Source: Bacillota bacterium (GTDB taxonomy: Bacteria > Bacillota > Clostridia > Peptostreptococcales > Anaerovoracaceae). From it: DNA of 64,000 bases. Shown here in pieces: positions 4,063 through 41,339 of this stretch (the first letter of the stretch is position 1; the number at the start of each line of letters is the position of its first letter). The translations under genes and the position numbers were made by a program. The notes below the pieces were generated by a model, which saw only the letters and a list, made by a program, of their open reading frames with translations, had not been told where the DNA came from and made no database searches. The stretch lies in the NCBI GenBank assembly GCA_017433375.1, contig JAFRHG010000029.1:21425-85424 (forward strand), given 5' to 3'.

Positions 4063-4081
4063 TTTAAACAAGGAGACCACA

Positions 4082-6003: not shown

Positions 6004-6032
6004 TTGACACTGCAAAGTGAAAAGGCTAGAAT
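6004..6032 (+). promoter_or_regulatory. Promoter of the cobalamin operon
   Basis: TTGACA at 6004-6009 and TAGAAT at 6027-6032 with a 17-base spacer, a near-consensus vegetative promoter. Transcription would start near 6039, just before the riboswitch. Confidence 0.7.
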
Positions 6033-6051
6033 GGGGTCGACAGTATAGAAA

Positions 6052-6251
6052 CATTCCATGTTCCCCCATTGATTTGGGGGCCAAGAGGGAATCAGGAGAG
6101 AAGCCTGAGCGGTCCCGCCACTGTGTTTAGGGAGTCTTCGTTCACTGCAAAGGCAATCCACTGGCTGAGCATCATCCGCGTTGAGGGATGGGCCCGGCTG
6201 GGAAGGAGAACGAAGGTGAAGATCTATGAGCCAGGAGACCTGCATGGAATA
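6052..6251 (+). promoter_or_regulatory. Cobalamin riboswitch aptamer
   Basis: Stem P1 pairs 6053-6060 with 6243-6250 (ATTCCATG/CATGGAAT). Inside lie the conserved blocks of the class: GGGAATC...CCTGAGCGG, CCCGCCACTGT, AATCCACTGG, CTGGGAAGG, and the B12 box GAGCCAGGAGACCTGC near 6229-6244. It binds adenosylcobalamin or a related corrinoid and, with the terminator at 6322, should switch the downstream operon off when cobalamin is plentiful. A copy of the iterated GCAAAGGCAAT motif lies in the peripheral part (about 6147). Confidence 0.93.
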
Positions 6252-6321
6252 TGGTTCTTGATCTGTGCGGTGAACACAGAGGCGAGAGAGCGAGCATAAA
6301 AAATGATGTAGCGAAAACGGG

Positions 6322-6350
6322 CTGCAGTCGAAGGTGACTGCAGTTTTTTT
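6322..6350 (+). terminator. Riboswitch expression-platform terminator
   Basis: CTGCAGTC (6322-6329) pairs with GACTGCAG (6336-6343), followed by seven T residues (6344-6350). It lies 70 bases after the aptamer and about 45 bases before the first start codon, as expected for transcriptional control by the riboswitch. Confidence 0.88.
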
Positions 6351-6395
6351 GTGCCTGCTCTCCACTCACCTCAGGTGAGAAGAAGGAGGTGTCTT

Positions 6396-9300
6396 ATGAC
6401 AAACAAAACGTTATTGCAAAAGCCGGGGATCCGGTGGGCGCTGGCGGCAGTGCTTGCCCTGCTCATGACGGCGGCCTTTTTACCCGTCCAATCATTTGCG
6501 GAAGATGGTGATCCCTCTGCAGGGACGGAAGGCTTCCTGTCGGAGATCCGGATAGGCGCGGCGCCGGGATATGCCATCGATCCGGCGTTCTCGGGAGAGC
6601 CGGGAGAATATACCTTTGAGGTGCTGGACAGCATTAACACGGTGGCCGTCACGCCGACTCTGTCGGAGGCCGGGGCAGGCGGGACCATCACGGTAAAGTG
6701 GACGAACCTGAACAATGAGCAGCCCCAGGAGAAGACTGTCCAGAGCGGGAAAAACCAGAACATGACCTGGTTCCGCAAGGCGGACACCCCCTCCGGAACC
6801 TCCTTCACCGTGGAGGTGACCAAGGATAAGGAAACCCAGGTTTACACCTTCACGGACAAGGTGGTCAGCCATCTGACCGGGCTGTCAGTAACTGAGAACG
6901 GACAAAAAGTGGTCATCGATCCGGCCTTCAATACCAATACACTGGAGTACTCCGCCACGGTGCTGGCAAGTACGGAAACGGTGAACATCAAGGCCACGCC
7001 CTACGGGGAAGGATATTCCGTCACCATCGCAGGCGCTGCCGCGCAGGGAGGCCAGGCCGATGCCGCACTGACCGGAGACACGACACAGATCCCGATCGTC
7101 GTACAGGGAACAGGGTTTGAGCCCCTGACCTACACACTGACAGTGAACAAGGTGCCTGCGGTCAAAGCCGTATTCGATACGACGCCGGAAGATGCCGGTG
7201 TGCTGCTCAGGGACAACAACGGAGACCGGATCCTGCCGGGCGCCGACGGGGCCTTTACCATCAAGGCCGGCGTTGAACACACATACTATGTCACGAAGGC
7301 GGGGTATGTTTCCGCCAGCGGGACCATCAATCTGAGCGAGGATACGGTCACGGAGGTGGATCTGGCCGAAGCGGCGGACAATCCGAACATCGACAAAGAC
7401 ACGCCCGCCCAGTGGAAAAACTTCCGCAACAGCGACAGCAACATGGCCATCGTCAGCGATCCTACGCCCAAGTCTGCAAAGGCAACGGAATTCCACTGGG
7501 CAAAAAAACTGGGTACCGGATGGAGCGCTGCAGTGAACCAGCCGATCATCGTTGACGGCAGGCTCATCACCATGTCGGGCAAGAAGATCTACGCGCTGAA
7601 CCTGACCACCGGCGAAGTGGAAATGGAAGGCGATCTTGTCGCTGCCCCCAGTTACAGCTACACCCCCATGACCTGTGTGGACGGGATCATCCTCTGCCCC
7701 CTGTCCAACGGGATCGTGCAGGCGGTCAACGCCAGCACGCTGGAATCCCTCTGGGTCTATACCGATGCGCTGAAGGGACAGGCGCTGTCCCCCATTGCCG
7801 TCAATGACGGATATGCGTACACCGGTTTCTGGAACCAGGAGAGCAAAGACGCAAACTATGCCTGCTTCTCCCTGACCGATGAAGATCCGGATGATCCCCT
7901 GGAGCAGAAGGCGCCCACCTGGACCTACACCAACAATGGAGGGTTCTATTGGGCCGGAGGGATCGCCGCGGGGGATTATATTCTCGTGGGAACCGATGAC
8001 GGCTGCCCCGAAGGAAGCCCCGGACCGGCCAGAATCCTGGCGCTGGATGCGAAGAGCGGAATCGTTGCCGACAGCGCGGGCGTGACGGGAGATCAGCGTT
8101 CATCGATCTCCTACGATCCCCAGTCCCAAAGATACTTTGGAACGACCAAGGCGGGAGAACTGTTCTCCTTCGGTTTTGATCAGGAAACCGGAAAGATCCT
8201 GGATTTCCGTTCCAAGGTCTACGGCGGGATGAGCACCAGCACACCACTGGTCTATAAAGGCGCGGTATACTGGGGCAACTCTTCCGGGCTGAACTTCTCA
8301 GGAAATAATTCCGTCATCGCCTCCGATGTCACCACCCTGGAGGAAAACTGGCGTGTCCCGCTGCAGGGTTATCCCCAGTGCTCCATGCTCCTCTCTACCG
8401 CATACGAGGAGACGGAAGGCTACGTCTATATTTACTCCACATACAACAGCCAGCCGGGCGGCATTACCCTGATCAAGGCGAAGCCCGACGCGAAGTCGAC
8501 GGAGGATGACAACGTCATCAAGGAAGAGATCTACGACGCGGAAGGATATCAGCAGTACTGCATCTCCAGCATCATCTCCGATGAGAACGGGCAGCTGTTC
8601 TACAAGAACGACTCATGCAACATGCTGGCCGTCGGGCCGGTGAACGCATCGCTGGATTCACTGACCGCAGAAGGCGGCGATCCGAAATGGGACAAGGAGT
8701 TCCAGAGTTCAAAGGAAAACTATGAGATCACCGTTGACCCGGGCACCCAGAGCGTTGCCTTTGCATTCGAACCTACTGAAGGAAGCAGTGTGGAGATCAA
8801 CGGGAAGACCGTGACGGACGGAACGTGGAACGTGAAAGTCCGCGATGGAAGCGGGCTGCTGGAGATCACGGCCGTATCGGGAACACACAGAAAAACCTAC
8901 ACGGTGAATATCCGCGAACGGTCACAGGACGCGACGCTGGGCGCATTGGTGGTCAATGAGTCCAACGCCTACGGCAGCGCGAAAACCATGTCCCCGGTCT
9001 TTGATTCCCAGGGGAAGGAATTCACGGTCTACGGTGCGGGTGCATCCAGAAGCTTCGAGAACGTGTGGCCCGACGCGACGGACAAAAACGCTGCGGTCAA
9101 GGTGTTCGCGATCTCCGGCGTTCCCGAGAACCGGCTGGACGATAAGACCACGGGAGAGATCTATGTGACGGCGGTCAATAACGGCCACAACCGGTACGCC
9201 TGCTATTTCGACGCCTCTACTGCGGCGGCCTCCCCAATCAAGCTGAAGATCCAGGTGACTTCCGAATCCGAAGACACGGTCCGGGATTATTACCTGACCG

Positions 9301-10118
9301 TAACGAAGAGCAAAAACGCCGACCGGACGGAGGCGCAGGCCTACTGCGACAGCATGGATCCGTCGGAGTATACCGGAGCGGATAAGGAAGCCATCCAGGA
9401 AGCCAAAGACGCCCTGCAGGACGCCATCACCGACGGAACCGATGCAGACGTGACGGCGGCGCTGACGGCAGCCATGAAGGCAGTCAATGAGAGCAAGACC
9501 ACACAGGAGAAACTGGATGAGCTGACCAGCGCGCTGGAAAAGGCCAATCGGGATCTGGATGCGGCCAAGCAGGATATCGCAGACGCCCAGGACAGCGCCG
9601 ATGATGCGCTGGCGGCGGCGGTAGCGGCGAAAGAGGAAGCGGAACAGAGGCTTGCCGAGGCGGAAGCGGCCATCGAAGATCTGAAGAAGGCCCAGCAGGA
9701 TAAGAACGCTGAACTGGAGGAGAAGCTGCAGAGCGCCCAGGCGGCTGCCGAGGCGGCCCAGAAAGCTGCAGATGCGGCAAAAGCAATGGCTGCGGAAGCG
9801 GGCAATCAGCTGAAGATCAACGAAGCAAAAGCCCAGACGGTCAAAGCCTTCAGGGTGAAGAAGGCGAAGAAACACAGCGCGAAGCTGAGGTGGAAGAAGA
9901 ACGGAAACGTTGGCGGCTACCAGATCGCCCGCGCGGCAAAGAAAAAAGGATCGTACAAAGTCATCGCCACGCTGAACAGCAACGGGGAGACAAAGTATAC
10001 GAACAAAAAGCTGAAGAAGGGCAAAAGGTATTACTACAAAGTCCGTACCTTCACGAAGATCAACGGCGAAGTGTATTACGGCAAGTGGACAAAAGTGAAA
10101 AAGGTCAGGGCCCGCTAG
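6396..10118 (+). CDS. Giant secreted PQQ-like beta-propeller protein
   Basis: 1240 residues from ATG 6396, which follows AAGGAGG. A signal peptide (about 1-34) is followed by two cadherin-like beta-sandwich domains (about 49-252), a PEGA-like segment (257-325), and a PQQ/quinoprotein-type beta-propeller (about 334-749, with repeats such as KIYALNLTTGEVE and ALDAKSG). Two more beta-sandwich domains (751-972), a helical region with a long coiled coil (about 1039-1145) and a Lys-rich fibronectin-like domain end it. No LPXTG or membrane anchor is visible, so it is probably released or held on the wall by its basic end. It is the first gene after the cobalamin riboswitch, which implies a role in corrinoid capture; a propeller (BtuG) does this job on the Bacteroides surface. 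The cobalamin link is inference from regulation. Confidence 0.8.
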   Translation: MTNKTLLQKPGIRWALAAVLALLMTAAFLPVQSFAEDGDPSAGTEGFLSEIRIGAAPGYAIDPAFSGEPGEYTFEVLDSINTVAVTPTLSEAGAGGTITVKWTNLNNEQPQEKTVQSGKNQNMTWFRKADTPSGTSFTVEVTKDKETQVYTFTDKVVSHLTGLSVTENGQKVVIDPAFNTNTLEYSATVLASTETVNIKATPYGEGYSVTIAGAAAQGGQADAALTGDTTQIPIVVQGTGFEPLTYTLTVNKVPAVKAVFDTTPEDAGVLLRDNNGDRILPGADGAFTIKAGVEHTYYVTKAGYVSASGTINLSEDTVTEVDLAEAADNPNIDKDTPAQWKNFRNSDSNMAIVSDPTPKSAKATEFHWAKKLGTGWSAAVNQPIIVDGRLITMSGKKIYALNLTTGEVEMEGDLVAAPSYSYTPMTCVDGIILCPLSNGIVQAVNASTLESLWVYTDALKGQALSPIAVNDGYAYTGFWNQESKDANYACFSLTDEDPDDPLEQKAPTWTYTNNGGFYWAGGIAAGDYILVGTDDGCPEGSPGPARILALDAKSGIVADSAGVTGDQRSSISYDPQSQRYFGTTKAGELFSFGFDQETGKILDFRSKVYGGMSTSTPLVYKGAVYWGNSSGLNFSGNNSVIASDVTTLEENWRVPLQGYPQCSMLLSTAYEETEGYVYIYSTYNSQPGGITLIKAKPDAKSTEDDNVIKEEIYDAEGYQQYCISSIISDENGQLFYKNDSCNMLAVGPVNASLDSLTAEGGDPKWDKEFQSSKENYEITVDPGTQSVAFAFEPTEGSSVEINGKTVTDGTWNVKVRDGSGLLEITAVSGTHRKTYTVNIRERSQDATLGALVVNESNAYGSAKTMSPVFDSQGKEFTVYGAGASRSFENVWPDATDKNAAVKVFAISGVPENRLDDKTTGEIYVTAVNNGHNRYACYFDASTAAASPIKLKIQVTSESEDTVRDYYLTVTKSKNADRTEAQAYCDSMDPSEYTGADKEAIQEAKDALQDAITDGTDADVTAALTAAMKAVNESKTTQEKLDELTSALEKANRDLDAAKQDIADAQDSADDALAAAVAAKEEAEQRLAEAEAAIEDLKKAQQDKNAELEEKLQSAQAAAEAAQKAADAAKAMAAEAGNQLKINEAKAQTVKAFRVKKAKKHSAKLRWKKNGNVGGYQIARAAKKKGSYKVIATLNSNGETKYTNKKLKKGKRYYYKVRTFTKINGEVYYGKWTKVKKVRAR

Positions 10119-10161
10119 AGCCTTGACCGCCCCTCCAGGGGCATGAAAAAGGAGAAATGCG

Positions 10162-11481
10162 ATGATAGTAAAGATGCTGTCAGCCCGGAGGGCTGATGTC
10201 AGGATATTGTTTCTGGCGTTGATCCTCCTGGCCTGTATGCTGTTTCTGCCGGCGAAGGTCATGGCGGAGGAGTATCCGGGATCGGCGTTCATCTCGCTGA
10301 GCAATGACGGTAAATTCGTTGTTTCCGATGGAGCGAGGAGCGGGGTGACCATAGCCCATCTGGAAGTCCCCCTGCAGGATGTGGCTGACGTGAAGCTGGA
10401 AGACTGGAACCTGGAGAAGTACAGCTATACCGACTACAACACAGGTGAGCCCGACCCAAATGCGCCGACTGTGCTGAAACTGTACCTGTATTTACTGGAA
10501 AACTATTATGGAAGTGCCGGAAACGGGAATGCTCTGGTGACAAGCGGGGATCCCCACTCCTTCTTTATGAACACCTTCTGGGGGCATGACTGCAACCTGC
10601 TGTATTATGTGAACGGACAGTATCCGCTGTTCAAGCCCGGCTGGGGCGCGACCGCTGACGGCATCATTCTTGAGGAAGGCGATTTCGTCGATGTGGCCAT
10701 GTTTACCGACTGGGGATTCTATTTGGACTCGGCGGCGGGCTTCAATTACTTTGTCCGCGCCGGCAGCGATCCTGTGGACGGTGAGATCACGTTCGCCTAC
10801 AAGGCGGTCGCGGGAGAACCGCTGACCGTTCAGGCGGTGCGTGGCATGGGCAACGTTTCCGAAGGGAAAGATACGGCCTACAGCGCCGCGGACGATCTGG
10901 CCCTTCACTACGGACCGGCGGTGGACGTTGATGATGTGAGCCGGATAACCCTTCAGGAGGGCAAAGCAGACATCGTCTTTGAGAAACCGGGCGAGTATTA
11001 TGTCTGGATCGACGGTGGCATAGGACCGGACACGGGAGAAGTCGTCTCCAGCCCGAACGTGGCAAAGGTTACGGTGACCGGCCCAGTGAAACCGGAAGGA
11101 GAGGATCCGAAACCTGCGAAGGAGCCGGCGAAGTCCGTCAGAACCGTTACGCTGGATGGAAAAACCATCAGCGCCGGCATGGTGGATAATGCAGTAAAAG
11201 CAGCCGGAGGTTCCGCGCAGACGGTAACCACCTTCATTATCGGCAAAAAGGTCAAAAAGATCAGCAAGGGCGCCTTCAGCAAGTACGGCAACGTGACTGT
11301 ACTGGAAGTCCAAAGCAAGAAACTCAAGAAAAAGAGCGTCAAGGGTTCCCTGAAGGGATCCGCGGTCACGACCGTCAAGGTCAGTGTCGGCAGCAAGAAG
11401 GTGAACAAGAAGTACGTGAAGAAGTACAAGAAGATCTTCACCAAAAAGAACGCCGGCAAGAAAGTTAACGTAACAAAATAG
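10162..11481 (+). CDS. Secreted DUF4430-like protein with Lys-rich C-terminal tail
   Basis: 439 residues; the start follows AAAAAGGAGAAATGCG. After a signal peptide (about 1-35) comes a domain like the transcobalamin C-terminal fold (DUF4430), with the hallmark LLYYVNGQYPLFKPGWG...LEEGDFVDVAMF (roughly 40-200). A beta-rich region and a P/E/K linker follow, then a tail of about 115 residues, very rich in lysine, that is nearly identical to the tail of the next gene. The tail resembles BspA-type leucine-rich repeats (GKKVKKISKGAF) and may bind the wall. In animal transcobalamin this C-terminal domain caps the cobalamin. It sits 43 bases after the propeller gene with no terminator between. Confidence 0.7.
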   Translation: MIVKMLSARRADVRILFLALILLACMLFLPAKVMAEEYPGSAFISLSNDGKFVVSDGARSGVTIAHLEVPLQDVADVKLEDWNLEKYSYTDYNTGEPDPNAPTVLKLYLYLLENYYGSAGNGNALVTSGDPHSFFMNTFWGHDCNLLYYVNGQYPLFKPGWGATADGIILEEGDFVDVAMFTDWGFYLDSAAGFNYFVRAGSDPVDGEITFAYKAVAGEPLTVQAVRGMGNVSEGKDTAYSAADDLALHYGPAVDVDDVSRITLQEGKADIVFEKPGEYYVWIDGGIGPDTGEVVSSPNVAKVTVTGPVKPEGEDPKPAKEPAKSVRTVTLDGKTISAGMVDNAVKAAGGSAQTVTTFIIGKKVKKISKGAFSKYGNVTVLEVQSKKLKKKSVKGSLKGSAVTTVKVSVGSKKVNKKYVKKYKKIFTKKNAGKKVNVTK

Positions 11482-11576
11482 GAACGCCGGCGCGGAGGAG
11501 CTGCCCTTCGACCCCGCAGCCGTCCCTACCGCGATCCGTCAAAGCAATTGCAACTGAGAAGAAGGAGGATTGTACG

Positions 11577-13532
11577 ATGAAGCAACTACGAAAACGTATC
11601 ACGGCAGTGATGCTTTCCCTGGCTATGGTGCTGGCCTTCATGCCGGTCCTGGGGGGAGTGTCCTATGCGAGTGATCAGGTCAAGAGCATCAAAGTCAGCG
11701 TTCTGACCCAGAAGGATGAGAACACGCTGCTGCAGGCCTTCCCCGAATTGACGGTGCGGGCGGATGCGGCGGAGTCCTACGGCTTTGCAAAACCGGACAC
11801 GGTCAGAGATCCGGACGAATCCGCCCAGTATCCTCTGGCGAATGAGGTGACGACACTGGATGTCCTGGTGGAGGCCAGCCATCAGATCTATGGCGACGCC
11901 TTTACACCCGAGACCGCCGGGGACTATCTCGCGGTGAACAGCGCAGGAACCATGACGAAGATCTTTGGTGAGACGACCACGCTTGCCGGATTCACGGTCA
12001 ACGGCGTGAACCCTACGTACTCTGACGAAACCACCGGAAGCCTGATCGATGACAGCATCGTTGAGGAAGGGGATTCCCTTCGATTCTTCAGGACCTTCGA
12101 AGACGATCTCGATTGCGGCGGACTGTTCACATCCATGCTCTACTTTGAAAACAAAGATCAGGCTGCCTATGAGGCATTACAGGGAGAGTCTCTGTGCGTC
12201 AGTGTAAGCGCTGCGTATGCCTTCGATAAGATGATGGGCGGCGGCGGTCCCCTCGATCCGGATGACGCAGTGGTGGCCATGAAAAACGAACAAGGCGAGA
12301 CCGTAGATACAGCAACGGCAGATGAAGATGGAGATGCCGTATTCACTGACCTTCAGCTGGGAAACTACACCCTGGTGATTAGTGCGTACAACGGAAATGA
12401 TTGGGATAGCCACTTCGTGACCCCCTATGCAACGGTTACGGTCACTGAGCCGAAGGAGGTCACGGGAACGGTCAAGGCCGCGGTCCGGAACTACGAGGCG
12501 GCAGATCAGTTTGACATTGTTCCTCAGAGGATCCGCGTCTCCAGCATGGCAGCCGAGAGCTACGGGGATATGGGTGACCGTGCAGCCGGATGCGGAGACA
12601 AGATCACCGTTGCCGACGTACTGTACACCCTGCATGCGCAGAAGTACGGCAACGCCTTCACCAAAGCGTCGGCAAAGGATTATCTCGCGATCGGGCCGGG
12701 CGGATGGATCACCAAATGCTTCGGCGTAGAGACAAGCGATCAGGTCTACATTATCAACAACAAACTTTCGATGTCGGGCTCAACTCACGATACTATCCTC
12801 AAAGACGGCGACCGGTATGACCACTTCATGTACCGGGACGGCTGGAACGATGTTGCGACCTGTTTTGGCGAGGATGACATCACCGTCAACATGGGAGAAA
12901 CGTTCAAACTGAATCTGAAGAGGCTCAACTGGGATGGAACGACAGAGGCCCTGAAGAGTGCGGAAAAAGAAGAAATCATCGCGGTGAAGATGGACAGCAG
13001 CGGCAAGCTCACTCCCATCAGCGGAGCGAAGATGGACAGCAATGGCGCGGTCAGCCTGACGCTGAACGACACCGGCACCTATGAGATCTCCGCGACTGGA
13101 AAAGCTGTAGGGGAATACGGCGACGGCAAAATCGCCGCGCCTCACTGCACCGTCACGGTGGTAGATCCTCTGGCCCAGGTCAAGTCGGTCAAAACCGTCA
13201 CCATCAATGTGAAGAAGGTCACGCCCAAGGCTGTGGACAACGCGGTCGCCAAGGCGGGCGGCTCTTCCCAGTTCGTGACCACATTCGTCATCGGCAAGAA
13301 GGTCAAAAAGATCAGCAAGGGCGCCTTCAAAAAGTATGGCAGTGTGACCACCCTGGAGGTCAAGTCCAAGAAGCTGAAGAAGAAGAGTGTCAAGGGCTCC
13401 CTGAAGGGATCCGCGGTCACGACCGTCAAGGTCAAGGTCGGCAGCAAGAAGGTGAACAAGAAGTACGTCAAGAAGTACAAGAAGATCTTCACCAAGAAGA
13501 ACGCCGGCAAGAAAGCTAAAGTAACCCGGTAG
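11577..13532 (+). CDS. Secreted protein with two DUF4430-like domains and Lys-rich tail
   Basis: 651 residues; ATG 11577 follows GAAGGAGG. Signal peptide about 1-31. Two related halves each contain a motif block (ADAAESYGFAKPD... and MAAESYGDMGDRA...) followed by TLDVL/TVADVLYTLHAQKYGNAFT and a turn resembling the VNG...GD signature of DUF4430 domains. Between and after them are Ig-like segments, then the same lysine-rich tail as in the preceding gene. Internal duplication of the N-terminal domain and sharing of the tail suggest repeated domain shuffling in this operon. The DUF4430 assignment is weaker than for the other members. A corrinoid-binding or corrinoid-handover role is inferred from operon context. 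Confidence 0.62.
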   Translation: MKQLRKRITAVMLSLAMVLAFMPVLGGVSYASDQVKSIKVSVLTQKDENTLLQAFPELTVRADAAESYGFAKPDTVRDPDESAQYPLANEVTTLDVLVEASHQIYGDAFTPETAGDYLAVNSAGTMTKIFGETTTLAGFTVNGVNPTYSDETTGSLIDDSIVEEGDSLRFFRTFEDDLDCGGLFTSMLYFENKDQAAYEALQGESLCVSVSAAYAFDKMMGGGGPLDPDDAVVAMKNEQGETVDTATADEDGDAVFTDLQLGNYTLVISAYNGNDWDSHFVTPYATVTVTEPKEVTGTVKAAVRNYEAADQFDIVPQRIRVSSMAAESYGDMGDRAAGCGDKITVADVLYTLHAQKYGNAFTKASAKDYLAIGPGGWITKCFGVETSDQVYIINNKLSMSGSTHDTILKDGDRYDHFMYRDGWNDVATCFGEDDITVNMGETFKLNLKRLNWDGTTEALKSAEKEEIIAVKMDSSGKLTPISGAKMDSNGAVSLTLNDTGTYEISATGKAVGEYGDGKIAAPHCTVTVVDPLAQVKSVKTVTINVKKVTPKAVDNAVAKAGGSSQFVTTFVIGKKVKKISKGAFKKYGSVTTLEVKSKKLKKKSVKGSLKGSAVTTVKVKVGSKKVNKKYVKKYKKIFTKKNAGKKAKVTR

Positions 13533-13559
13533 ATTCAAAGCAAAGGAGCATCCGTCATC

Positions 13560-14495
13560 ATGCATGAGATCATCCGCGCCATCGAGGCGGAAGCGGGAAA
13601 AGCCATTCTGGGAAAAGAGGAGATCATACGAAAGGTCCTGACGGTGATCATCGCCGGCGGGCACATTCTGCTGGAGGATATTCCGGGGGTCGGCAAAACG
13701 ACGCTGGCCCTCGCCTTCAGCCGGGCCATGGACCTGCAGTTCAACCGCGTCCAGTTCACGCCGGACGTGGTCCCCTCGGACATCACCGGCTTCACCGTCT
13801 ACAGCAAGAAGAGCGAAAAGTTCGTCTACCGCCCCGGCGCGGCCATGTGCAACATCCTGCTGGCGGATGAGATCAACCGGACATCAAGCAAAACACAGTC
13901 TTCCCTCCTGGAAGTCATGCAGGAGGGAAGCATCACCGTGGATGGGAGGACGTGGAAGGTGCCTGAACCCTTCGTGGTCATCGCCACACAGAATCCCATC
14001 GGTACGGCGGGAACACAGATGCTCCCCGAGGCGCAGCTGGATCGCTTCATGATCCAGCTGTCCATCGGGTATCCCGACGAGGAAGCGGAGATCAATATCC
14101 TGAAGGACCGGAAGCAGACGGATCCCCTCCAGAGCATCGTGCGGGTGGCCGGGGCGGAGGATGTGATGGCCATGGGCAGGGAGGCCCGGGAGGTGTTCAT
14201 CCATGACATGATCTACGGCTACATCACCGCCCTCTGCCGCAGAAGCCGGGAGCACGAGCTGATCCGACTGGGCTTAAGCCCCCGGGGAGCCCTGTCCCTG
14301 ACGGCCATGGCCCAGGCCTGGGCCTATGTGCAGGGCAGGGAGTTTGTGATCCCCCAGGATATCTGGGCCGTCTTTCCCGACGTGGCCAGGCACCGGCTCA
14401 TGCTGCACACCCGGGCAGGGGTGCAGGGAAAGGATAAGGAGAGCATCATCGCCGAGCTCCTGCAGGACGTGCCTCTGCCTCAGCTGAACCAATGA
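13560..14495 (+). CDS. MoxR-type AAA+ ATPase
   Basis: 311 residues with Walker A GVGKTT at 43-48, Walker B LLADEINR near residue 103, the sensor motif ATQNP, and the arginine-containing DRFM stretch of MoxR ATPases. These act as chaperone-like ATPases that assemble or activate partner proteins, usually with a DUF58 protein encoded next door. That partner follows here with an ATGA overlap, and a transglutaminase-like membrane protein follows that: the common MoxR-DUF58-TgpA trio. Its position inside the cobalamin-controlled operon suggests a role in assembling or cross-linking the secreted proteins; this is inference. Confidence 0.93.
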   Translation: MHEIIRAIEAEAGKAILGKEEIIRKVLTVIIAGGHILLEDIPGVGKTTLALAFSRAMDLQFNRVQFTPDVVPSDITGFTVYSKKSEKFVYRPGAAMCNILLADEINRTSSKTQSSLLEVMQEGSITVDGRTWKVPEPFVVIATQNPIGTAGTQMLPEAQLDRFMIQLSIGYPDEEAEINILKDRKQTDPLQSIVRVAGAEDVMAMGREAREVFIHDMIYGYITALCRRSREHELIRLGLSPRGALSLTAMAQAWAYVQGREFVIPQDIWAVFPDVARHRLMLHTRAGVQGKDKESIIAELLQDVPLPQLNQ

Positions 14496-18636: not shown

Positions 18637-18660
18637 CCGGAAGGAAAGGAGGAGGACCGG

Positions 18661-19878: not shown

Positions 19879-19940
19879 CAGGGCAGGCCCCGGACATGGG
19901 GCTGGCCGGACAGCAGGACAGGATAACACGAGGTGACGGC

Positions 19941-22900
19941 ATGAGACAGAGAAACACAGGACGGAAATCTATCAGGCGGTGCCTGCCGGTCATCGGGCTG
20001 GCGGTGATGCTGACCATGGCCTGGATCGCCTTTGGGGGAGGCGCGGCAAGCGCCGCGGACCGGGACATCGAGTGGGGAAGCTACCAGAACAGCGCGGAGA
20101 ACAACGGCGTTGTCGGCGGCATCCCGACGCCCCAGTCCTATGAGGAGACCTCCCTCCTCTGGGGGAAGAAAATGGTCGACGGCTACACCGTGTCCTTCAC
20201 GCCGCCGCTGATCATCGACGGGGATCTGATCACCGCGTCCAACAAACACGTTTACCGGATCGACAAGCGCACCGGGGACATAAAAGCAACCAGCGCGGAG
20301 CTGAAGCTCAACGTAGGATACGCCATGAATCCCATCACCTATGACCGGGAGAAGGATCAGTTTTATGTGCCCATCATGAACGGGCGTGTGCAGTGCCTGG
20401 ACGGGGAGGACCTTTCCTCGAAATGGATCTCCCGGGAGTACAAATACAACCAGACCCTGTCGCCCATCGCCTGCAAAGGCGGCCTGGTCTACACGGGGAT
20501 CTGGGAGACGGAGACCGATGACGGCGTGTTCTTCTGCCTGGACGGGGATACCGGGGAAGAGGTCTGGACCTTCCGGCCGTCGGAGCACGGGGATCTGCCC
20601 CACGGATTCTACTGGGCGGGGGCCTACGTCAACGACGACCATGTGGTCGTCGGTTCCGACGACGGAGCGAACAACACCTTCGCGGAGGCGTCCGATGAGG
20701 CCTATCCGGCGACGGCGGTGGCCTACTGCTTCGACCGGAGAACGGGGGCGGTCATCGACCGGATCACCGGGATCAAGGGGGACGTCCGGAGCACGGTGGC
20801 TTACCATAAGGGCTTCGTCTATTTCGTGTCCAAGGGAGGATGCCTCTACAAAGCGGCCCTCGGCGCGGACGGCAAGTTCAGCCAGGTCTCTTCGATCCAG
20901 CTGAAGGATGACCGGGGCGTGGACGTGATGATGACCTCCACCCCGGTGATCCACAAGGGCAGGATCTATGCCGGCGCGGCAGGATCGGGAGGACAGTTCA
21001 GCGCCGACGGTGGGCACATGTTCGCCGTGATCCGGGACGATCCGTCTCTGTCGGCCGGCTCCCTGATCTACAGGGTGCCCATCTCCGGCTATCCCCAGGC
21101 GGCGCCCCTGCTCTCCACGGCCACCGAGGACACCGACGGCAAGGTCCGCCTCTACTTCACCTTCAATGCCTTCCCCGGCGGGATCTACTGCCTGGAGGAC
21201 TCGGCGGAGGCGACGGCGGAGCATCATGAGAAGGCCCACCTGCTGTACCGGCCGGAAAAGGAGATGCAGCAGTACTGCATCAGCCCCCTGTGCTGTGACC
21301 GGGAGGGGACCTTCTACTTTAAAAACGACAGCGGGTACATGATGGCGGTCAGCATGAACAAAGCCTGGCTCAGCGGCATCGACGTCACCTGCGCCCAGGG
21401 CGGGGTGGTCTGGGAGAACGCCTTCACCTCCGGGACTCTGAACTATACCCTGAACGCGCCCGGCGGAGCGGAGGAGGTGAAGATCACCCCGCAGATTCCT
21501 GAGGGAAGCGGGATGACGGTCAGGGTGGACGGGAAGGACTTTACCGGACAGCCGGTGGCCGCTGCGGTCGGAACCCAGTCCCGGGCCGTCCCCGTGGAGG
21601 TGACGAAGACCGCGGGAGACCGGAGCTGGACCAGGACCTACACGCTGAACATCAGCTCCGCTTCGGACAACGCGAACCTGGCCGGGATCGCCATAAACGA
21701 TAACAACACGAAGCCCCAGATCGTTGACACGGAAGACCGAAAGGCCAGCGGGATCGGCGTGGGGTACGACCCGGACTTTGACGCCGCCATCGCCGACTAC
21801 ACGGGCAGGACTTACGGAGGAAAGAATACCTACCTCAACATCTGGCTGCAGACGGCAGACAGCAAGGCTTCCCTTCGGGTCATCCCCGTGAGCAACGTGG
21901 GCAACAGTTCGCCCGGCAAATTCATGAACGAGGACGGCACCCTCAGGCCGGGAAACGACAAGAGCAGATATCCGGTCTACTGGGTCAAGGGGGCCAACTC
22001 CGCGGAAGTGGATGTGGAGGTGACCTCCGCCAGCGGGCAGAGCAAGAAGGTGTACCATGTGACCCTGGTCCGGGGCAAGGATCATCTGGATGTCGGTGAG
22101 GAGCCCCTGACCCTGACGCCGCCTTCGGCGGTGCTGGCCACCGCCGGCAGGCAGCAGAGCGTACAGATCTCGGCAAGCTTCCGCGGAGAAGATGTGACCG
22201 GGGAGTGCGCCTTCGAATCGACGGATCCGGCCGTGGCGACGGTCAGCGGCGGCGGGAAGATCACCGCCGTCAGCGCCGGTGAAGCGGAGATCTGGGTCGA
22301 GCTTACCCGGGAGAACCGGCGGGGACGGATCCATGTCGAGGTGGAAAGCCTGCAGCTGGAGCCGCCGACGGCCTCCCTGCGCAGCGGTACCTATGCGCAG
22401 CCCCTGCAGCTGGCGCTCCAGTCGGATCAGCCCGGCGCCCAGATCCGCTACAATATTGCCGAGGGCGAAGACGAGCCGCCGGCGCCCACCACGACGACCG
22501 GGACGGTCTACGACGGGCCCATCGCCATCGGAAGGAACGGGGAGTCCGTCTCCGTGACCATCCGCGCCATTGCCTGCGGCAAGGGCTTCTCCAAAAGCGA
22601 CCCTGCGGAGTTCCGCTACACGGTGGACTTGAGGGAGGGCCCGAAGACGGAACCCAACACCGTATCCCTGGAACCGGGCAGCATCGCCGTGGCGGAAAAG
22701 GATGCGGCGGCCTTCGCGGCCCTGCCCCCAGGGACATCTTATGAAGCGCTGGCCGGGAAGCTGGCGGCGGTGAAGACCGTCCGGGTGACCCTGACCAAAG
22801 GCTCGGATGTGAGCGGCGTCGACCTGTCGGATCCCGATCATCCCCGGATCAGCGCCGATGTGACGTGGGACGGCGAGGAGACCTACGCCTATGATCCAGC

Positions 22901-23570
22901 GGACAGCCGGGAGCAGAAATTCCTGGTCGGCGGTACGGTCACTCTGCCCGAGGGCGTCAGCGACGGCGGCAGCACTCTGCGGGTATACCTTTCGGTGACC
23001 GTCTGCGCGGCGCCGAAGCCTGCGCCTGCGCCCGTGCCGGCGCCCGGCGCCGTGAATGGCTTCTCGGCGAAGGTGAGCGCGAAGAGCAAAGCAATCATCG
23101 TCAGCTGGAATCCTGTCGCGGGTGCCGGCGGCTATGTGGTCGGCTGGCGCAAGGCAGGCGACAGATGGAACACGGCACAGGTATCCGGGACATCCCATAC
23201 CCTGTCCGGCCTGGCCTCCGGCGGATGCTACGAGGTGCGGACGGCGGCGGTGAACGCCTCCGGCCAGAGCGGCTGGAGCCCGTCGGAATACTGCCTGATC
23301 CAGAAGACGACTCTGAAAGTGAAGGCGGGCAAAAAGTCCTTCACCGCCAAGATGAAAAAGGTGAAGAAGGTCAGCGGCTACCAGGTCCGGTATTCCCTGC
23401 AGAACAATATGGCCGGCGCGAAGAAGAAGAACGGAAAGAAGCCGAAGATCACGGTGAAAAAGCTGCAGAAAAAGAAAGTGTACTATGTGCAGGCCATGCC
23501 ATATAAGAAGACCGGCGGGGCAGTCTATTACGGCGAGGCCGTTTCGAAAAAGGTGAAGATCAAAAAATAG
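19941..23570 (+). CDS. Second giant PQQ-like beta-propeller surface protein
   Basis: 1209 residues from ATG 19941 (GAGGTG just upstream). Signal peptide about 1-41. A PQQ-type propeller (about 43-477) is clearly related to that of the first gene: both share the SYQ/FRN-x-N opening, the G-Y-P-Q segment and the QQYCIS...FKNDS end. Then come cadherin-like sandwiches (477-715), a Big-2 domain (722-802), a chitobiase-C-terminal-like domain (802-897), a beta domain, a Pro/Ala linker, a fibronectin type III domain (1037-1123) and a Lys-rich fibronectin-like end. No sorting motif. The two propeller genes bracket the transcobalamin-like genes, supporting a shared role at the surface. Confidence 0.8.
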   Translation: MRQRNTGRKSIRRCLPVIGLAVMLTMAWIAFGGGAASAADRDIEWGSYQNSAENNGVVGGIPTPQSYEETSLLWGKKMVDGYTVSFTPPLIIDGDLITASNKHVYRIDKRTGDIKATSAELKLNVGYAMNPITYDREKDQFYVPIMNGRVQCLDGEDLSSKWISREYKYNQTLSPIACKGGLVYTGIWETETDDGVFFCLDGDTGEEVWTFRPSEHGDLPHGFYWAGAYVNDDHVVVGSDDGANNTFAEASDEAYPATAVAYCFDRRTGAVIDRITGIKGDVRSTVAYHKGFVYFVSKGGCLYKAALGADGKFSQVSSIQLKDDRGVDVMMTSTPVIHKGRIYAGAAGSGGQFSADGGHMFAVIRDDPSLSAGSLIYRVPISGYPQAAPLLSTATEDTDGKVRLYFTFNAFPGGIYCLEDSAEATAEHHEKAHLLYRPEKEMQQYCISPLCCDREGTFYFKNDSGYMMAVSMNKAWLSGIDVTCAQGGVVWENAFTSGTLNYTLNAPGGAEEVKITPQIPEGSGMTVRVDGKDFTGQPVAAAVGTQSRAVPVEVTKTAGDRSWTRTYTLNISSASDNANLAGIAINDNNTKPQIVDTEDRKASGIGVGYDPDFDAAIADYTGRTYGGKNTYLNIWLQTADSKASLRVIPVSNVGNSSPGKFMNEDGTLRPGNDKSRYPVYWVKGANSAEVDVEVTSASGQSKKVYHVTLVRGKDHLDVGEEPLTLTPPSAVLATAGRQQSVQISASFRGEDVTGECAFESTDPAVATVSGGGKITAVSAGEAEIWVELTRENRRGRIHVEVESLQLEPPTASLRSGTYAQPLQLALQSDQPGAQIRYNIAEGEDEPPAPTTTTGTVYDGPIAIGRNGESVSVTIRAIACGKGFSKSDPAEFRYTVDLREGPKTEPNTVSLEPGSIAVAEKDAAAFAALPPGTSYEALAGKLAAVKTVRVTLTKGSDVSGVDLSDPDHPRISADVTWDGEETYAYDPADSREQKFLVGGTVTLPEGVSDGGSTLRVYLSVTVCAAPKPAPAPVPAPGAVNGFSAKVSAKSKAIIVSWNPVAGAGGYVVGWRKAGDRWNTAQVSGTSHTLSGLASGGCYEVRTAAVNASGQSGWSPSEYCLIQKTTLKVKAGKKSFTAKMKKVKKVSGYQVRYSLQNNMAGAKKKNGKKPKITVKKLQKKKVYYVQAMPYKKTGGAVYYGEAVSKKVKIKK

Positions 23571-23582
23571 GGATCCGGGGAG

Positions 23583-24245
23583 ATGGAACAGGAACTGCTG
23601 AACAAAGCCAGAAAAAAACGGCGGAGGGCTTGGGGGATCATCGCGGTCCTGGCGGTCTTTGCCGCCCTGGCGGCCTTCGGCCTGCTGCGGCAGGGCGGGG
23701 CGGATCCCCAGGGCGCCGGCGGGGGCGGGGATGCAGCGCTGTCTGCGGACGGATCTTACGTCACCATGGAGGTCACCTGCCGGGATCTGTCGGAGCACAT
23801 GGACCGGCTGACCGATGAAGGGGTGCGGGAGTACATCCCGGAGGACGGAGAGATCCTGGCCCCGGAGAGGGTTGCCTTTGCAGAAGGGGAGACGGTCTAC
23901 GATGTGCTGTACCGGACGTGCCGGGAGAAGAAGATCCATATGGAGTCCAGCGAGGATCCCGTGTATCAGTCCCGCTACGTGGAGGGGATCGGCCACCTGT
24001 ACGAAAAGGACGCCGGCAAGCGGAGCGGCTGGATCTATGAGGTGGACGGCGAGCAGCCGAACTATGGCTGCTCGAAGTACAGGCTGAAGAAGGGGCAGAC
24101 GGTCCGCTGGGTCTACGTCACCGACTATACGGAGCAGACCGGCGCGCCGGACGGCGGTGACGCCGGGGACGGCGGCGCAGACAGTGCGGGCAGCGGCGCA
24201 GAGAGTGACGGCAGCGCGGACAGCGCCGGGAAGGAGGCGGACTGA
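23583..24245 (+). CDS. Small membrane-anchored DUF4430 protein
   Basis: 220 residues. A basic N-terminus and one hydrophobic helix (about 15-38) anchor it; the DUF4430 domain spans about 55-190 with ERVAFAEGETVYDVLYRTC and RSGWIYEVDGEQPNYG...LKKGQTVRWVYV. The last 30 residues are Gly/Ala/Asp/Ser repeats. The stop overlaps the start of the EcfT gene (TGATG), so it is translationally coupled to the transporter. Being the short, membrane-close member, it may hand the ligand to the S component; this is inference. Confidence 0.83.
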   Translation: MEQELLNKARKKRRRAWGIIAVLAVFAALAAFGLLRQGGADPQGAGGGGDAALSADGSYVTMEVTCRDLSEHMDRLTDEGVREYIPEDGEILAPERVAFAEGETVYDVLYRTCREKKIHMESSEDPVYQSRYVEGIGHLYEKDAGKRSGWIYEVDGEQPNYGCSKYRLKKGQTVRWVYVTDYTEQTGAPDGGDAGDGGADSAGSGAESDGSADSAGKEAD

Positions 24246-25279
24246 TGTTCCGGGAAGGGCTCGGTGAGCGCTCGGCCTTCGGGGAGTACCACCCGGCGGT
24301 CAATCTGACCTACTATATCCTTGCCATCGGCATCACGGTCTTTTCCCTGTCGCCCTGGTTCCTGGTGGCCACCTTCCTGCTGGCCTGGGTCTATTCGGTG
24401 ATGCTGAGGGGAACTTCCGCCGTGCGCATGAATCTGGTGTTCATTCTCTGGATCATCGTCCTCATGGCGCTGATCAACGTGTTCTTCACCCACCAGGGTG
24501 AGACGGTCCTCTGTTATCTCCACGGCAACCGGATCACCGCGGAGGCGCTGATCTACGGCCTGTCCGCGGCGGTCATGCTCAGCGCCGTGCTCGTCTGGTT
24601 CACCAGCTTCAACGCCATCATGACGGCGGAGAAGCTGATCTACATCTTCGGCCGGGCGGCGCCGGTGCTGGGGCTGACCCTGTCCATGATCTTCCGCTAC
24701 ATCCCCCTGCTGAAGGACCGTTACGGGGAGATCCGCATGGGGCAGATGTGCATGGGCCGGGGCGGGCCGGCGGGGCCCGGGGAAGGGGCCGGCGCTGCGC
24801 GTGGGATCGGTGAAGAGGCGGACGGATCCGGGGTTGTCTCTGCACAGAGAACCGGTGATGCGGCGGAAGACGCGCCGTCCCGAAAGACCCCTCGGAAGGC
24901 CCCCTTCCTCCAGCGGCTGCGCCAGGGCGGAAAGAACGTGTCCGTGCTGATCTCCTGGTCCCTGGAGTCCTCCATCGAAAACGCGGATTCCATGGAGGCC
25001 AGGGGCTACGGCCTGAAGGGGAGGACCAGTTTCCATCTCTACCGGTTCACGGGCCGGGACGCTCTGATGGAGACCTGGCTTTGCGCCCTGGGGGCTGCCT
25101 GCATCGCCGGGTGCGCCCTGGGTAAAACCGGCGCCTTCTTTTACCCCCGCTATGTTCCCCATCCTCTGGACGGGGGCGCCGCCTTAACACTCGTTGCCTT
25201 TGTATGCCTTCTGGCTACGCCGGTTTTTCTGGACCTGCTCGGAGAAATAAAATGGAAGCGATCCGATTTGACAACCTGA
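24245..25279 (+). CDS. ecfT: ECF transporter transmembrane subunit EcfT (CbiQ family)
   Basis: 344 residues. N-terminal membrane helices, then the CbiQ/EcfT segments YIFGRAAPVLGLTLSMIFRYIPLLKDRY and SIENADSMEARGYG, whose Ala-Arg-Gly triplet belongs to the coupling helices that contact the ATPases. Between these is an unusual insert of about 50 residues, Gly/Ala/Asp-rich and probably disordered. EcfT transmits ATP-driven movement to the substrate-binding S component. Its start overlaps the DUF4430 gene and its end overlaps the EcfA gene. Confidence 0.92.
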   Translation: MFREGLGERSAFGEYHPAVNLTYYILAIGITVFSLSPWFLVATFLLAWVYSVMLRGTSAVRMNLVFILWIIVLMALINVFFTHQGETVLCYLHGNRITAEALIYGLSAAVMLSAVLVWFTSFNAIMTAEKLIYIFGRAAPVLGLTLSMIFRYIPLLKDRYGEIRMGQMCMGRGGPAGPGEGAGAARGIGEEADGSGVVSAQRTGDAAEDAPSRKTPRKAPFLQRLRQGGKNVSVLISWSLESSIENADSMEARGYGLKGRTSFHLYRFTGRDALMETWLCALGAACIAGCALGKTGAFFYPRYVPHPLDGGAALTLVAFVCLLATPVFLDLLGEIKWKRSDLTT

Positions 25280-27045
25280 CCTTCACCTATCCCATGAGCC
25301 CTTCGCCGGTGCTGGAGGGGATCTCCTTCTCCGTGGAGGAGTCGGAGTTCCTCCTGGTCTGCGGCAAGTCCGGCTGCGGCAAGACCACCCTGCTCCGCCA
25401 GATCAAAAAGAGCCTGATTCCCTACGGACAGCGGAAGGGGGAGGTCCTCTATTACGGCGGGCCGGCGGATCAGCTGGACGACCGGCGGGGCGCGTCGGAG
25501 ATCGGCTTCGTGCAGCAGAATCCGGACAACCAGATCGTTACCGATAAGGTGTGGCACGAGCTGGCCTTCGGGCTGGAGAGCCTGGGTATGGAAGGGGCGG
25601 CCATCCGCAGGAGGGTGGCGGAGATGGCCAGCTATTTCGACATCCAGGGCTGGTTCCGCAGGGATGTGGCCAGTCTTTCCGGGGGGCAAAAGCAACTCCT
25701 CAACCTGGCCTCCATCATGGTGATGCAGCCAAAACTGCTGGTGCTGGACGAGCCCACGTCCCAGCTGGATCCCATCGCCGCCTCCGAGTTCCTGCAGACC
25801 ATCCGGCGGATCAACCAGGAACTGGGCATCACGGTCATCCTCTCCGAGCACCGGCTGGAGGAGGCTTTCTCCATGGCGGACCGGGTGATGGTGATGGACC
25901 GGGGGAAGGTGCTGGCCTGGGGCGGCCCCCGGCGGATCGGCGGCCAGCTGGCCCGGATGGAGCACCCCATGTTCCACGGCCTGCCGGCGGTGACGAAGAT
26001 CTACCACGCCGCGGCAGATGGGAACGCGGCGGCTGCAACCGGCGAAGGCCCCCTCACCGTGCGGGAAGGCCGGCTCTGGCTCCGGGAAAAGGCGAATGAA
26101 GCCGGCCTGGATAAAGGGCCCGCCGCGGAGCTCTGGGAAAAGGTCTGCGGGAGAAATGCCGGTGGAGATCCCTCCGTCGGATCCGTTTTCTCCGGCAGCG
26201 AAGGACCCTTCGGGAGTGAGGCCGGGAGAATGACCGGGCAGGGGGGACTTCCCGATAAGAGAGAGAGCCGCTCCGGGCGTTCGGGAAAAGACCGGACCGG
26301 GCCGGCGATCCGCATGAAGAACGTCTGGTTCCGCTACGAAAAAAACGGCGCCGATGTGCTGCGTGATCTGAATCTGGAGGTCTTCCCCGGGCAGCTGTAC
26401 GCCCTCCTCGGCGGCAACGGCGTGGGCAAGACTACGGCACTGAAGGCGGTGATGGGTCTGATCGCTCCCCGGCGGGGGAAGGTGAGCGCCGGCGGCCGCA
26501 TCGCCATGCTCCCCCAGAATCCCCAGGCCCTGTTCTCGGAGATCACCGTGGAGGACGAACTTTTGGAGGTCCTCCACGGGACGGGCAAAACCGATGAGGA
26601 AATGGCGGCCGCGGTATCGGCGATGATCGAACGAATGGAGATCCGGCATCTGCGCCAGTCCCACCCTTATGATCTGTCCGGCGGCGAGCAGCAGAGGCTG
26701 GCCCTGGGTAAGGTGCTGCTGCTGGAACCGGAGATCCTCCTTCTGGACGAGCCCACCAAGGGACTGGATCCCTTCTTCAAGCTGACTCTGGCGGAGATCC
26801 TGAAGGACCTGTCCGGCCGGGGGATCGCCGTGCTCATGGTGTCCCACGACATCGAGTTCTGCGCCCGGCACGCCCACCGGTGCGCCATGTTCTTCGATGG
26901 CGGCATGGTCTCCGAAGGGGACCCCCGAAGCTTTTTCGCCGGCAACAGCTTCTACACGACCACAGCCAATCGGATGGCCCGGGAGTACTTCCCCGGCGCC
27001 GTGACCTGGGAGGAGGTGGCGGCATGCGTCCGGAACATGAGGTGA
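25252..27045 (+). CDS. ecfA: ECF transporter ATPase, fused EcfA-EcfA
   Basis: 597 residues with two complete ABC domains in one chain. The first has Walker A GKSGCGKTT (38-46), signature LSGGQKQ and Walker B LLVLDEPTSQLD. The second has Walker A GGNGVGKT (387-394), signature LSGGEQQR and ILLLDEPTKGLDP. Most ECF systems use two separate ATPases. A linker of about 100 residues joins the halves. ATG 25252 lies inside the end of ecfT and is preceded by GGAGAAATA. Together with EcfT and the S component it would drive vitamin import. Confidence 0.92.
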   Translation: MEAIRFDNLTFTYPMSPSPVLEGISFSVEESEFLLVCGKSGCGKTTLLRQIKKSLIPYGQRKGEVLYYGGPADQLDDRRGASEIGFVQQNPDNQIVTDKVWHELAFGLESLGMEGAAIRRRVAEMASYFDIQGWFRRDVASLSGGQKQLLNLASIMVMQPKLLVLDEPTSQLDPIAASEFLQTIRRINQELGITVILSEHRLEEAFSMADRVMVMDRGKVLAWGGPRRIGGQLARMEHPMFHGLPAVTKIYHAAADGNAAAATGEGPLTVREGRLWLREKANEAGLDKGPAAELWEKVCGRNAGGDPSVGSVFSGSEGPFGSEAGRMTGQGGLPDKRESRSGRSGKDRTGPAIRMKNVWFRYEKNGADVLRDLNLEVFPGQLYALLGGNGVGKTTALKAVMGLIAPRRGKVSAGGRIAMLPQNPQALFSEITVEDELLEVLHGTGKTDEEMAAAVSAMIERMEIRHLRQSHPYDLSGGEQQRLALGKVLLLEPEILLLDEPTKGLDPFFKLTLAEILKDLSGRGIAVLMVSHDIEFCARHAHRCAMFFDGGMVSEGDPRSFFAGNSFYTTTANRMAREYFPGAVTWEEVAACVRNMR

Positions 27046-28070
27046 GGCCGGCGGCCCCCGGCGACAGGGATCCGGGAAGCCCCGGCGCAGAGCCGCGAAA
27101 GGACAGGTACCGGCAGGACCTGACTCAGTACGAGGCGGCGGCCAGGAAGCGCACCCTGGTCTCCGCCCTGATCATCTTCCTCCTGATCCCCGCCACCATG
27201 CTCTTCGGCGTGGCAGTGCTGGACCAGAACCTGTACATGGTCATCAGCATGCTGGTGGTCATCTACACCCTGATCCCCTTTTTCATGGTCTACGAGCGGA
27301 GAAGGCCCAAGGCCAGGGAGATCGTGCTCATCGCCATGATGGCCGCGCTGACCACGGTGATCCACGTCTTCTTCCACGTGACGATCCCCGTCCAGGCGGG
27401 GACGGCCATGGTGATCATCTCGGGGATCGCCCTGGGACCGGAGGCGGGATTTCTGGTGGGCGCCCTGGCTCGGCTGGTCTGCAACTTCTACCTCGGGCAG
27501 GGGCCCTGGACGCCCTGGCAGATGGTCTGCTGGGGTCTGCTGGGATTCCTGGCCGGGCTTGCCTTCAACCGGGTGGATCCGGCGACCCTGAAGAAGCGGG
27601 AAAAACCGCTGATGGAGATCAGCGCCGGCAGCTTCCGCAGTCTCCTTGCGCCGCTGATCTGCCTGCTCTTCGCCGCGGCTGCGGCCTGGGTCAGCTATCT
27701 GATCTGGCCGGGAAAGGACGCAACCTTCTTCGGATGGCGGCTCTACGTCTTCGGCGCCATAGGCCTTCTGGCCGGCGTCCTCCTGCAGCGGAGGCGGCTG
27801 CCGGCGGACAGCCTGACCATGGCCGTCTTTACCTTCTTCACCACCTTCATCATCTACGGCGGGATCATGAACATCTGCGCCATGGTCAACGCCTCGGTCA
27901 TGCCCGGCGCCGACCCGGTCAGCTTCGCCGCCCTGCGCCTCCTCTATGTGGCCGGCGTTCCCTACGACGCGGTCCACGCCGCCACCGCCGCGGCCTTCAT
28001 CTTTCTCTTCGGCAGCCTTTTCGTGCAGAAGCTGGAGCGGGTCCGGATTAAATACGGGATTTACCGATGA
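27024..28070 (+). CDS. ECF transporter S component, probably for cobalamin
   Basis: 348 residues from ATG 27024, which follows GGGAGGAGG and overlaps the EcfA gene by 22 bases. About 35 charged residues precede eight or so membrane helices. The segment GPEAGFLVGALARLVCNF followed by GQGPWTPWQM is characteristic of S components related to the cobalamin-type CbrT group. S components bind the vitamin and topple in the membrane. Control by the cobalamin riboswitch and neighbouring DUF4430 proteins point to a corrinoid as substrate, although the sequence alone does not prove it. This is the last gene of the operon. Confidence 0.83.
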   Translation: MRPEHEVRPAAPGDRDPGSPGAEPRKDRYRQDLTQYEAAARKRTLVSALIIFLLIPATMLFGVAVLDQNLYMVISMLVVIYTLIPFFMVYERRRPKAREIVLIAMMAALTTVIHVFFHVTIPVQAGTAMVIISGIALGPEAGFLVGALARLVCNFYLGQGPWTPWQMVCWGLLGFLAGLAFNRVDPATLKKREKPLMEISAGSFRSLLAPLICLLFAAAAAWVSYLIWPGKDATFFGWRLYVFGAIGLLAGVLLQRRRLPADSLTMAVFTFFTTFIIYGGIMNICAMVNASVMPGADPVSFAALRLLYVAGVPYDAVHAATAAAFIFLFGSLFVQKLERVRIKYGIYR

Positions 28071-41181: not shown

Positions 41182-41229
41182 TTAACCACAGGGGAAAGGG
41201 CTGAAGCCCCTGTGACAATACTATATATG

Positions 41230-41293
41230 CCAATATAAGCACGAAGATATGGTTAGTGCGTTTCTACCGTAACACCTTATTTACGACTATTGG
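41230..41293 (+). promoter_or_regulatory. Guanine-type purine riboswitch
   Basis: P1 is CCAATA (41230-41235) with TATTGG (41288-41293). Conserved core: GATATGG loop L2, J2/3 GTTTCTACC, P3 CGTAA...TTACG, and J3/1 reading GACTAT. The specificity base in J3/1 is C (about 41287), the guanine/hypoxanthine form; adenine switches have T. A terminator follows at 41340, so guanine should turn the importer off. Confidence 0.85.
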
Positions 41294-41339
41294 TTGATTG
41301 TCCGAAATCTTCTTCGGGGCGTTCAATCCGTATTGGCAG

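Follow-up and report, generated by a model that had tools for sequence, protein, structure and literature searches.

The window analyzed here, the whole stretch of 64,000 nucleotides from a gut Bacillota bacterium, belongs to a draft genome of 1.95 Mb (38 contigs, ~89 percent complete) and contains a 22-kb operon that very probably serves the B12-repressed scavenging and import of corrinoids, with transcobalamin-type capture proteins feeding a CbrT-like energy-coupling factor (ECF) importer. By all computational signs, this is a conserved and widespread B12-capture and import operon, outlined in 2007 (PMC1796856) and tied here to CbrT and to cobalamin riboswitches. At low B12, the riboswitch would stay unbound, the terminator would not form, and the operon would be expressed. 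Secreted or anchored proteins with DUF4430 domains, together with a barrel lipoprotein and/or PQQ-type propellers, would grip corrinoids on the outer side of the membrane. Protein J, an anchored DUF4430 protein whose gene adjoins that of EcfT, may pass the corrinoid to the CbrT-like component EcfS, with EcfT and the double ATPase EcfAA powering the import.

The operon and its cobalamin riboswitch

A promoter match, a cobalamin riboswitch, and a terminator are followed by 13 plus-strand genes, the last of which ends at position 28070. All operon positions are given in window coordinates.

6004..6032, +, sigma-70-type promoter match TTGACA-17-TAGAAT (11 of 12 consensus bases)
6041..6261, +, cobalamin riboswitch aptamer RF00174 (111 bits, E 5.7e-27)
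6319..6346, +, intrinsic terminator, likely the riboswitch expression platform (12-pair stem and T run)
6396..10118, +, gene A: secreted protein with PQQ-type beta-propeller (residues 333-757) and cadherin-like and fn3-like domains
10162..11481, +, gene B: secreted protein with one divergent DUF4430-like domain (hhalign 84 percent, 38 columns; no Pfam match)
11577..13532, +, gene C: secreted protein with two divergent DUF4430-like domains (hhalign 93 percent each, ~100 columns)
13560..14495, +, gene D: MoxR-type AAA ATPase (AAA_3, E 1.2e-55)
14492..15613, +, gene E: DUF58 protein (24.1 bits, cut-off 23.4)
15507..17753, +, gene F: transglutaminase-like membrane protein (Transglut_core, E 5.8e-22; start codon uncertain)
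17668..18636, +, gene G: lipoprotein with an alpha/alpha barrel (lipobox in the N terminus recognized by eye)
18661..19878, +, gene H: N-terminal membrane anchor and DUF4430 (PF14478, 34.6 bits, cut-off 23.8)
19941..23570, +, gene I: secreted protein with PQQ-type beta-propeller (residues 38-482) and cadherin-like, Ig-like, and fn3 domains
23583..24245, +, gene J: N-terminal membrane anchor and DUF4430 of the transcobalamin beta type (PF14478, 63.7 bits; structure model)
24245..25279, +, gene K: EcfT, CbiQ family (Pfam match over cut-off)
25252..27045, +, gene L: EcfA, two ATPase domains in one chain (Pfam match over cut-off)
27042..28070, +, gene M: EcfS, the substrate-binding membrane component, CbrT-like (Pfam and PDB sequence matches; start codon uncertain, GTG at 27042 more likely than 26880)

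This arrangement bears out the sequence-only reading, which had placed a promoter, a cobalamin aptamer, and a terminator ahead of 13 same-strand genes. The aptamer far exceeds the RF00174 gathering score of 31.5 bits and covers model positions 1-189 of 189. The promoter match is the only one on the plus strand between positions 5850 and 28176, the next lying at 28177, just past the last gene. The segment from 6262 to 6350 folds with a z of -2.7 relative to shuffled sequences. By analogy with known riboswitches, the order of promoter, aptamer, and terminator points to transcription termination with B12 bound.

The 13 open reading frames (ORFs) overlap or are separated by 12 to 95 bases, as expected from the short gaps and overlaps described earlier. 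The accompanying claim that internal terminators are absent stands in a weaker form: further terminator-like matches inside the operon are weak and lie within coding sequence. Two terminator scans of both strands yielded 19 and 13 matches, compared to 11.7 and 7.3 in shuffles. Given this excess, a continuous RNA from the riboswitch through the operon is putative.

Most of the earlier gene assignments are retained. The MoxR-DUF58-transglutaminase trio in the middle of the operon and the EcfT, EcfA, and EcfS genes score over their Pfam cut-offs, DUF58 barely. The two predicted propeller proteins, A and I, belong to one family, with Pfam PQQ_2 found only in I and slightly below its cut-off. From the four proposed DUF4430-type proteins, H and J exceed the Pfam cut-off, whereas B and C are recognized only by profile-profile comparison (hhalign) between profiles that share members; the regions of J were excluded from the iterative search started with B and C to prevent drift into that family. 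Pfam DUF4430 matches in this genome are confined to this operon. The long surface proteins may span the cell wall.

Two more cobalamin riboswitches were observed elsewhere in the genome. The second (L002:1502-3110, G000:C35) precedes a CbiK-like protein (sirohydrochlorin cobaltochelatase) with a lipoprotein-like N terminus and a score under the curated cut-off, and the third (L003:934-1622, G000:C17), an Rfam match to model positions 47-167, precedes an ORF of 159 residues.

The DUF4430 proteins and their conservation beside ECF genes

Modeled with high confidence, the gene J product is closest, among solved structures, to haptocorrin, intrinsic factor, and transcobalamin. With a beta-grasp fold closest to the C-terminal domain of transcobalamin, the protein fits the transcobalamin-like SLBB clade (PMC1796856). 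The beta-hairpin inserted after the helix, by which this clade is recognized (PMC1796856), corresponds to strands 68-73 and 78-84 behind a helix at 53-63, as read off the secondary structure without superposition.

Relatives were collected by scanning 84,980 species, each represented by a single genome, with a DUF4430 profile that carried no ECF or riboswitch information (profile A3 was used, A1 being too diverse), which gave at least 598 pattern matches and at least 576 confirmed relatives. The loci studied are the best 80 of 576 and are thus biased to domains that resemble it closely. At least four of these loci (L054, L056, L060, and L066) appear to duplicate contigs of the genus set. A simple hydropathy rule finds an N-terminal hydrophobic segment in gene J and in 69 of the 80 best DUF4430 ORFs, which assigns them to the secreted or surface proteins.

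A missing conserved neighborhood in relatives had been named beforehand as a result that would overturn the proposal. Instead, an ECF gene adjoins DUF4430 in 72 of the 80 loci (EcfT in 71, EcfA in 71, and EcfS in 61), and a same-strand barrel is found in 48. The best DUF4430 ORF lies less than 200 bases from EcfT or EcfA in 45 of the 77 loci having downstream DNA. In the 100 loci L034-L133, there are 27 instances of a single ORF encoding both barrel and DUF4430, with two of these ORFs counted twice.

Cobalamin riboswitches are likewise enriched. The covariance model R1 was built from 14 Rfam-recognized riboswitches of the window, its genome, and relatives, one of which (L050) shares a contig with L066 of the 80 loci. 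At 24 bits or more, R1 detects 47 riboswitches in 39 of the 80 loci (1.22 Mb in total), 42 of them on the strand of the module. The 31 whole genomes of the genus and order (~67 Mb) contain 101 at an E of ≤0.001, from which 1.8 would be expected in 1.22 Mb; the density in the 80 loci is therefore ~25 times higher. Any match at an E of ≤0.01 occurs in 43 of the 80 loci and none in 37, and a same-strand riboswitch upstream of an ECF gene is present in 28. Of 20 stretches fetched earlier, 13 contain cobalamin riboswitches recognized by Rfam itself; in at least two of these 13 (L036 and L047), the riboswitch is not ahead of the ECF genes on their strand.

Several arrangements deviate from that of the window. 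Riboswitches standing in series, most of them preceding their own DUF4430 or barrel gene, occur in L066:6753-8972, L055:8120-9054, and L065. A riboswitch with a propeller gene runs divergently from the DUF4430 gene in L070 and from the DUF4430-ECF block in L075 and L099, which shows that a capture protein can own a separate riboswitch. In L041, L046, L049, and L052, the riboswitch core reads CACTGTGTCTCAGCAACCGT in place of GCGGTCCCGCCACTGT, with lower Rfam scores; these riboswitches possibly form a subclass.

It is unlikely, in view of this neighborhood, that the ECF part imports B12 while the surface proteins perform a different, co-regulated job such as adhesion, host glycoprotein binding, or wall assembly or repair. 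Three observations nevertheless weigh on that side and against a capture function: the long proteins that combine cadherin-like, fn3, and Ig-like domains, the presence of the MoxR-DUF58-transglutaminase trio, and the activity of the purified Lactobacillus ECF-CbrT complex without a capture protein (PMC5997447). They are opposed by the resemblance of gene J to the animal B12 carriers above all other solved structures, by the close spacing of DUF4430 and EcfT or EcfA, and by the recurrent fusion of DUF4430 with the barrel. Within the 80-locus set, L077 has relatives of all three trio genes next to the system, L106 has those of DUF58 and transglutaminase, and L126 has one of MoxR; in the 20 earlier-fetched stretches, relatives of trio genes occur in L034, L035, and L037. 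Our guess is that the trio assembles or processes the surface proteins.

The ECF importer and its vitamin

A profile of 34 EcfS relatives compared with all PDB sequences gives 6fnp as the best match (E 6.4e-21), followed by RibU 3p5n (E 9.2e-8) and then by other S-components, including those for folate. The window EcfS alone shows 6fnp as its sole convincing match (E 2.8e-7). We take 6fnp to be the structure of ECF-CbrT with the B12 S-component CbrT. EcfS is thus nearer to CbrT than to the other solved S-components, and the EcfT and EcfA that complete such an importer are present. ECF-CbrT is described as an ATP-driven importer of cobalamin and cobinamide (PMC5997447), and a survey from 2019 counts CbrT among the B12 importers of gut bacteria (PMC6593275). 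The operon shares EcfT, EcfA, and a CbrT-type S-component with the system of Lactobacillus delbrueckii, in which one ECF module is shared with other S-components (PMC5997447). The window differs in having its ECF genes and EcfS in one operon, a double-ATPase EcfA, and extracellular proteins alongside. In relatives, a second EcfT commonly follows EcfS (EcfT-EcfAA-EcfS-EcfT, as in L054, L056, L065, and L077); the window has a single EcfT.

Two independent signs, the cobalamin riboswitches and the S-component with CbrT as its nearest solved relative, agree with the earlier identification of the vitamin as cobalamin, which is the probable substrate of EcfS judging by its sequence. A need for B12 in this bacterium is indicated by D-ornithine 4,5-aminomutase and lysine 5,6-aminomutase, both above their NCBIfam cut-offs; a MetH-like protein falls below its cut-off, scored on a frame truncated by the locus end. 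Two PF01497 substrate-binding proteins are encoded elsewhere in the genome, and neither is called BtuF above the curated cut-off.

Cobalamin riboswitches also precede cobalt transport genes. That the substrate is cobalt, a corrinoid precursor, or another tetrapyrrole in place of cobalamin is nonetheless improbable given the CbrT-like sequence of the S-component, whose Pfam matches are to the riboflavin-type ECF family and the general ECF S family. Acceptance of cobinamide by CbrT itself (PMC5997447) lends this alternative some weight, although transport of cobinamide or of other cobamides is possible and would fit corrinoid scavenging equally.

Barrel, propeller, and earlier predictions

The transcobalamin likeness claimed in the sequence-only reading applies to DUF4430 in both sequence and predicted structure and to the barrel at the fold level only. 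The nearest folds of the barrel are squalene-hopene cyclase and sugar epimerases, its PDB sequence matches are terpene cyclases, and scores against squalene-cyclase models stay under the cut-off. The Pfam model taken to represent the animal cobalamin-binding family is unlisted at an E of ≤1 for the barrels of window gene G, L109, L113, L062, and L053, in a search in which HMMER filters discard most matches above ~0.1. Folding used alignment A5; A7, with DUF4430-only rows placed on the barrel, was set aside. The fold list for the two-domain model (VIA) is filled by the barrel and is silent on the DUF4430 part.

The beta domain shares its fold with animal transcobalamin, intrinsic factor, and haptocorrin. 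In the window, genes G and J encode barrel and beta domain as two distinct anchored proteins, and no sequence match of the barrel to the animal family was found. Relatives such as L109, L053, and L062 contain both in a single chain with the barrel first, the order of transcobalamin. DUF4430, barrel, and propeller proteins alike would be expected to bind corrinoids. That the barrel is instead an active terpene cyclase or sugar-epimerase-type enzyme, as its nearest folds might imply, is the least probable alternative, since the protein is secreted, forms one chain with DUF4430 in many relatives after the manner of transcobalamin, and lacks DxDD, the catalytic acid motif of squalene cyclases, in 15 of the 16 rows of alignment A1 (DVDI in the window; the exception, L053:3733-4404, reads DLDD).

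At least 7 kb precede the first ECF gene in 46 of the ECF loci, and of these, 29 contain only a barrel, 12 only a propeller, 4 both, and 1 neither; the window holds a barrel and two propellers. As a plain count, this alternation gives a Fisher p of 5e-7, and over all 72 ECF loci, 12 of which have neither, p is 4e-5. At least eight changes of state are required on an EcfA tree of 62 loci and at least seven on one of 40, which omits six of the 46 loci with too short an EcfA. The 40-locus tree provides ~4 independent pairs, on average 3.7 opposite and 0.3 same (median p 0.25), and the 62-locus tree gives a similar result. With so few independent pairs, the alternation is a lead and no proven rule.

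DUF4430 and a propeller share one ORF in L059, L073, L086, and L123, and one ORF of L070 holds DUF4430, propeller, and barrel. This suggests that barrel and propeller are interchangeable partners of DUF4430. A tentative extension, somewhat less likely to hold than to fail, is a clamp with a constant DUF4430 half and an exchangeable outer half of barrel or propeller. Gram-positive gut bacteria would then possess two kinds of carrier, one transcobalamin-like and one new and propeller based, each feeding a CbrT-type importer, and the barrel kind would be the stock from which the animal carriers arose. 

BtuG of Bacteroides is a B12-binding surface beta-propeller that has been studied at the bench (PMC6143338; structure 3DSM). 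As surface propellers tied to B12 uptake, the window proteins are a functional parallel; they differ in being PQQ/BamB-like, as compared by sequence and not by fold. Kinship with BtuG was considered and finds no support at this level, the best PDB matches being designed propellers and BamB; 3DSM is absent among the 52 PDB sequences matched by the window propellers at an E of ≤1 in this sequence comparison.

Transcobalamin-like domains of Gram-positive bacteria were described by Burroughs, Balaji, Iyer, and Aravind, who found them fused on either side to alpha/alpha toroids, or else to a propeller, and encoded together with CbiO-like and CbiQ-like proteins in operons (PMC1796856). They proposed B12 scavenging by these proteins and a transfer to animals as the origin of the animal carriers. 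The window and its relatives share with those systems the secreted beta-type domains, the toroid or propeller fusions, often a second paralogue in the operon, the CbiO-like ATPase, and the CbiQ-like membrane protein (PMC1796856). A word search of the main text of that paper finds no mention of riboswitch, ECF, MoxR, or transglutaminase; the link of the S-component to CbrT, the counted riboswitch enrichment, and the replacement of barrel by propeller go beyond it. The earlier statement that no characterized system has this composition accordingly stands for experimental work and not for prediction, which existed in 2007. A literature search, with most subscription papers outside its reach, found no experimental study of a Gram-positive B12 capture system of this kind, and no prior description of the barrel/propeller alternation or of the extended gene set was found.

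For Gram-positive gut bacteria, surface capture of B12 has no description in the literature found, unlike that by BtuG (PMC6143338). The DUF4430 type is widespread, with at least 576 confirmed relatives, and the best 80 include named strains of Blautia, Ruminococcus bromii, Flavonifractor plautii, and Eubacterium uniforme. The prediction of 2007, B12 binding and descent of the animal carriers from such proteins, is therefore directly testable in culturable commensals and bears on the competition of host and microbes for B12.

A few observations concern the surroundings of the system. A gene for a TIM-barrel protein of the xylose isomerase type lies upstream of the window riboswitch (4064-4894), and such genes occur near the system in 8 of the 80 and 5 of the 20 loci (including L044, L046-L049, and L077). 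One locus titled Bacteroides sp. (L074, JAMPBO010000002.1) has the operon, with L087, titled Lachnospiraceae, as its sister on the EcfA tree; this draft genome may be mislabelled or mixed. Finally, a purine riboswitch at 41211-41309 of the window precedes a lipoprotein and an ABC transporter, which by eye resemble a nucleoside uptake operon.

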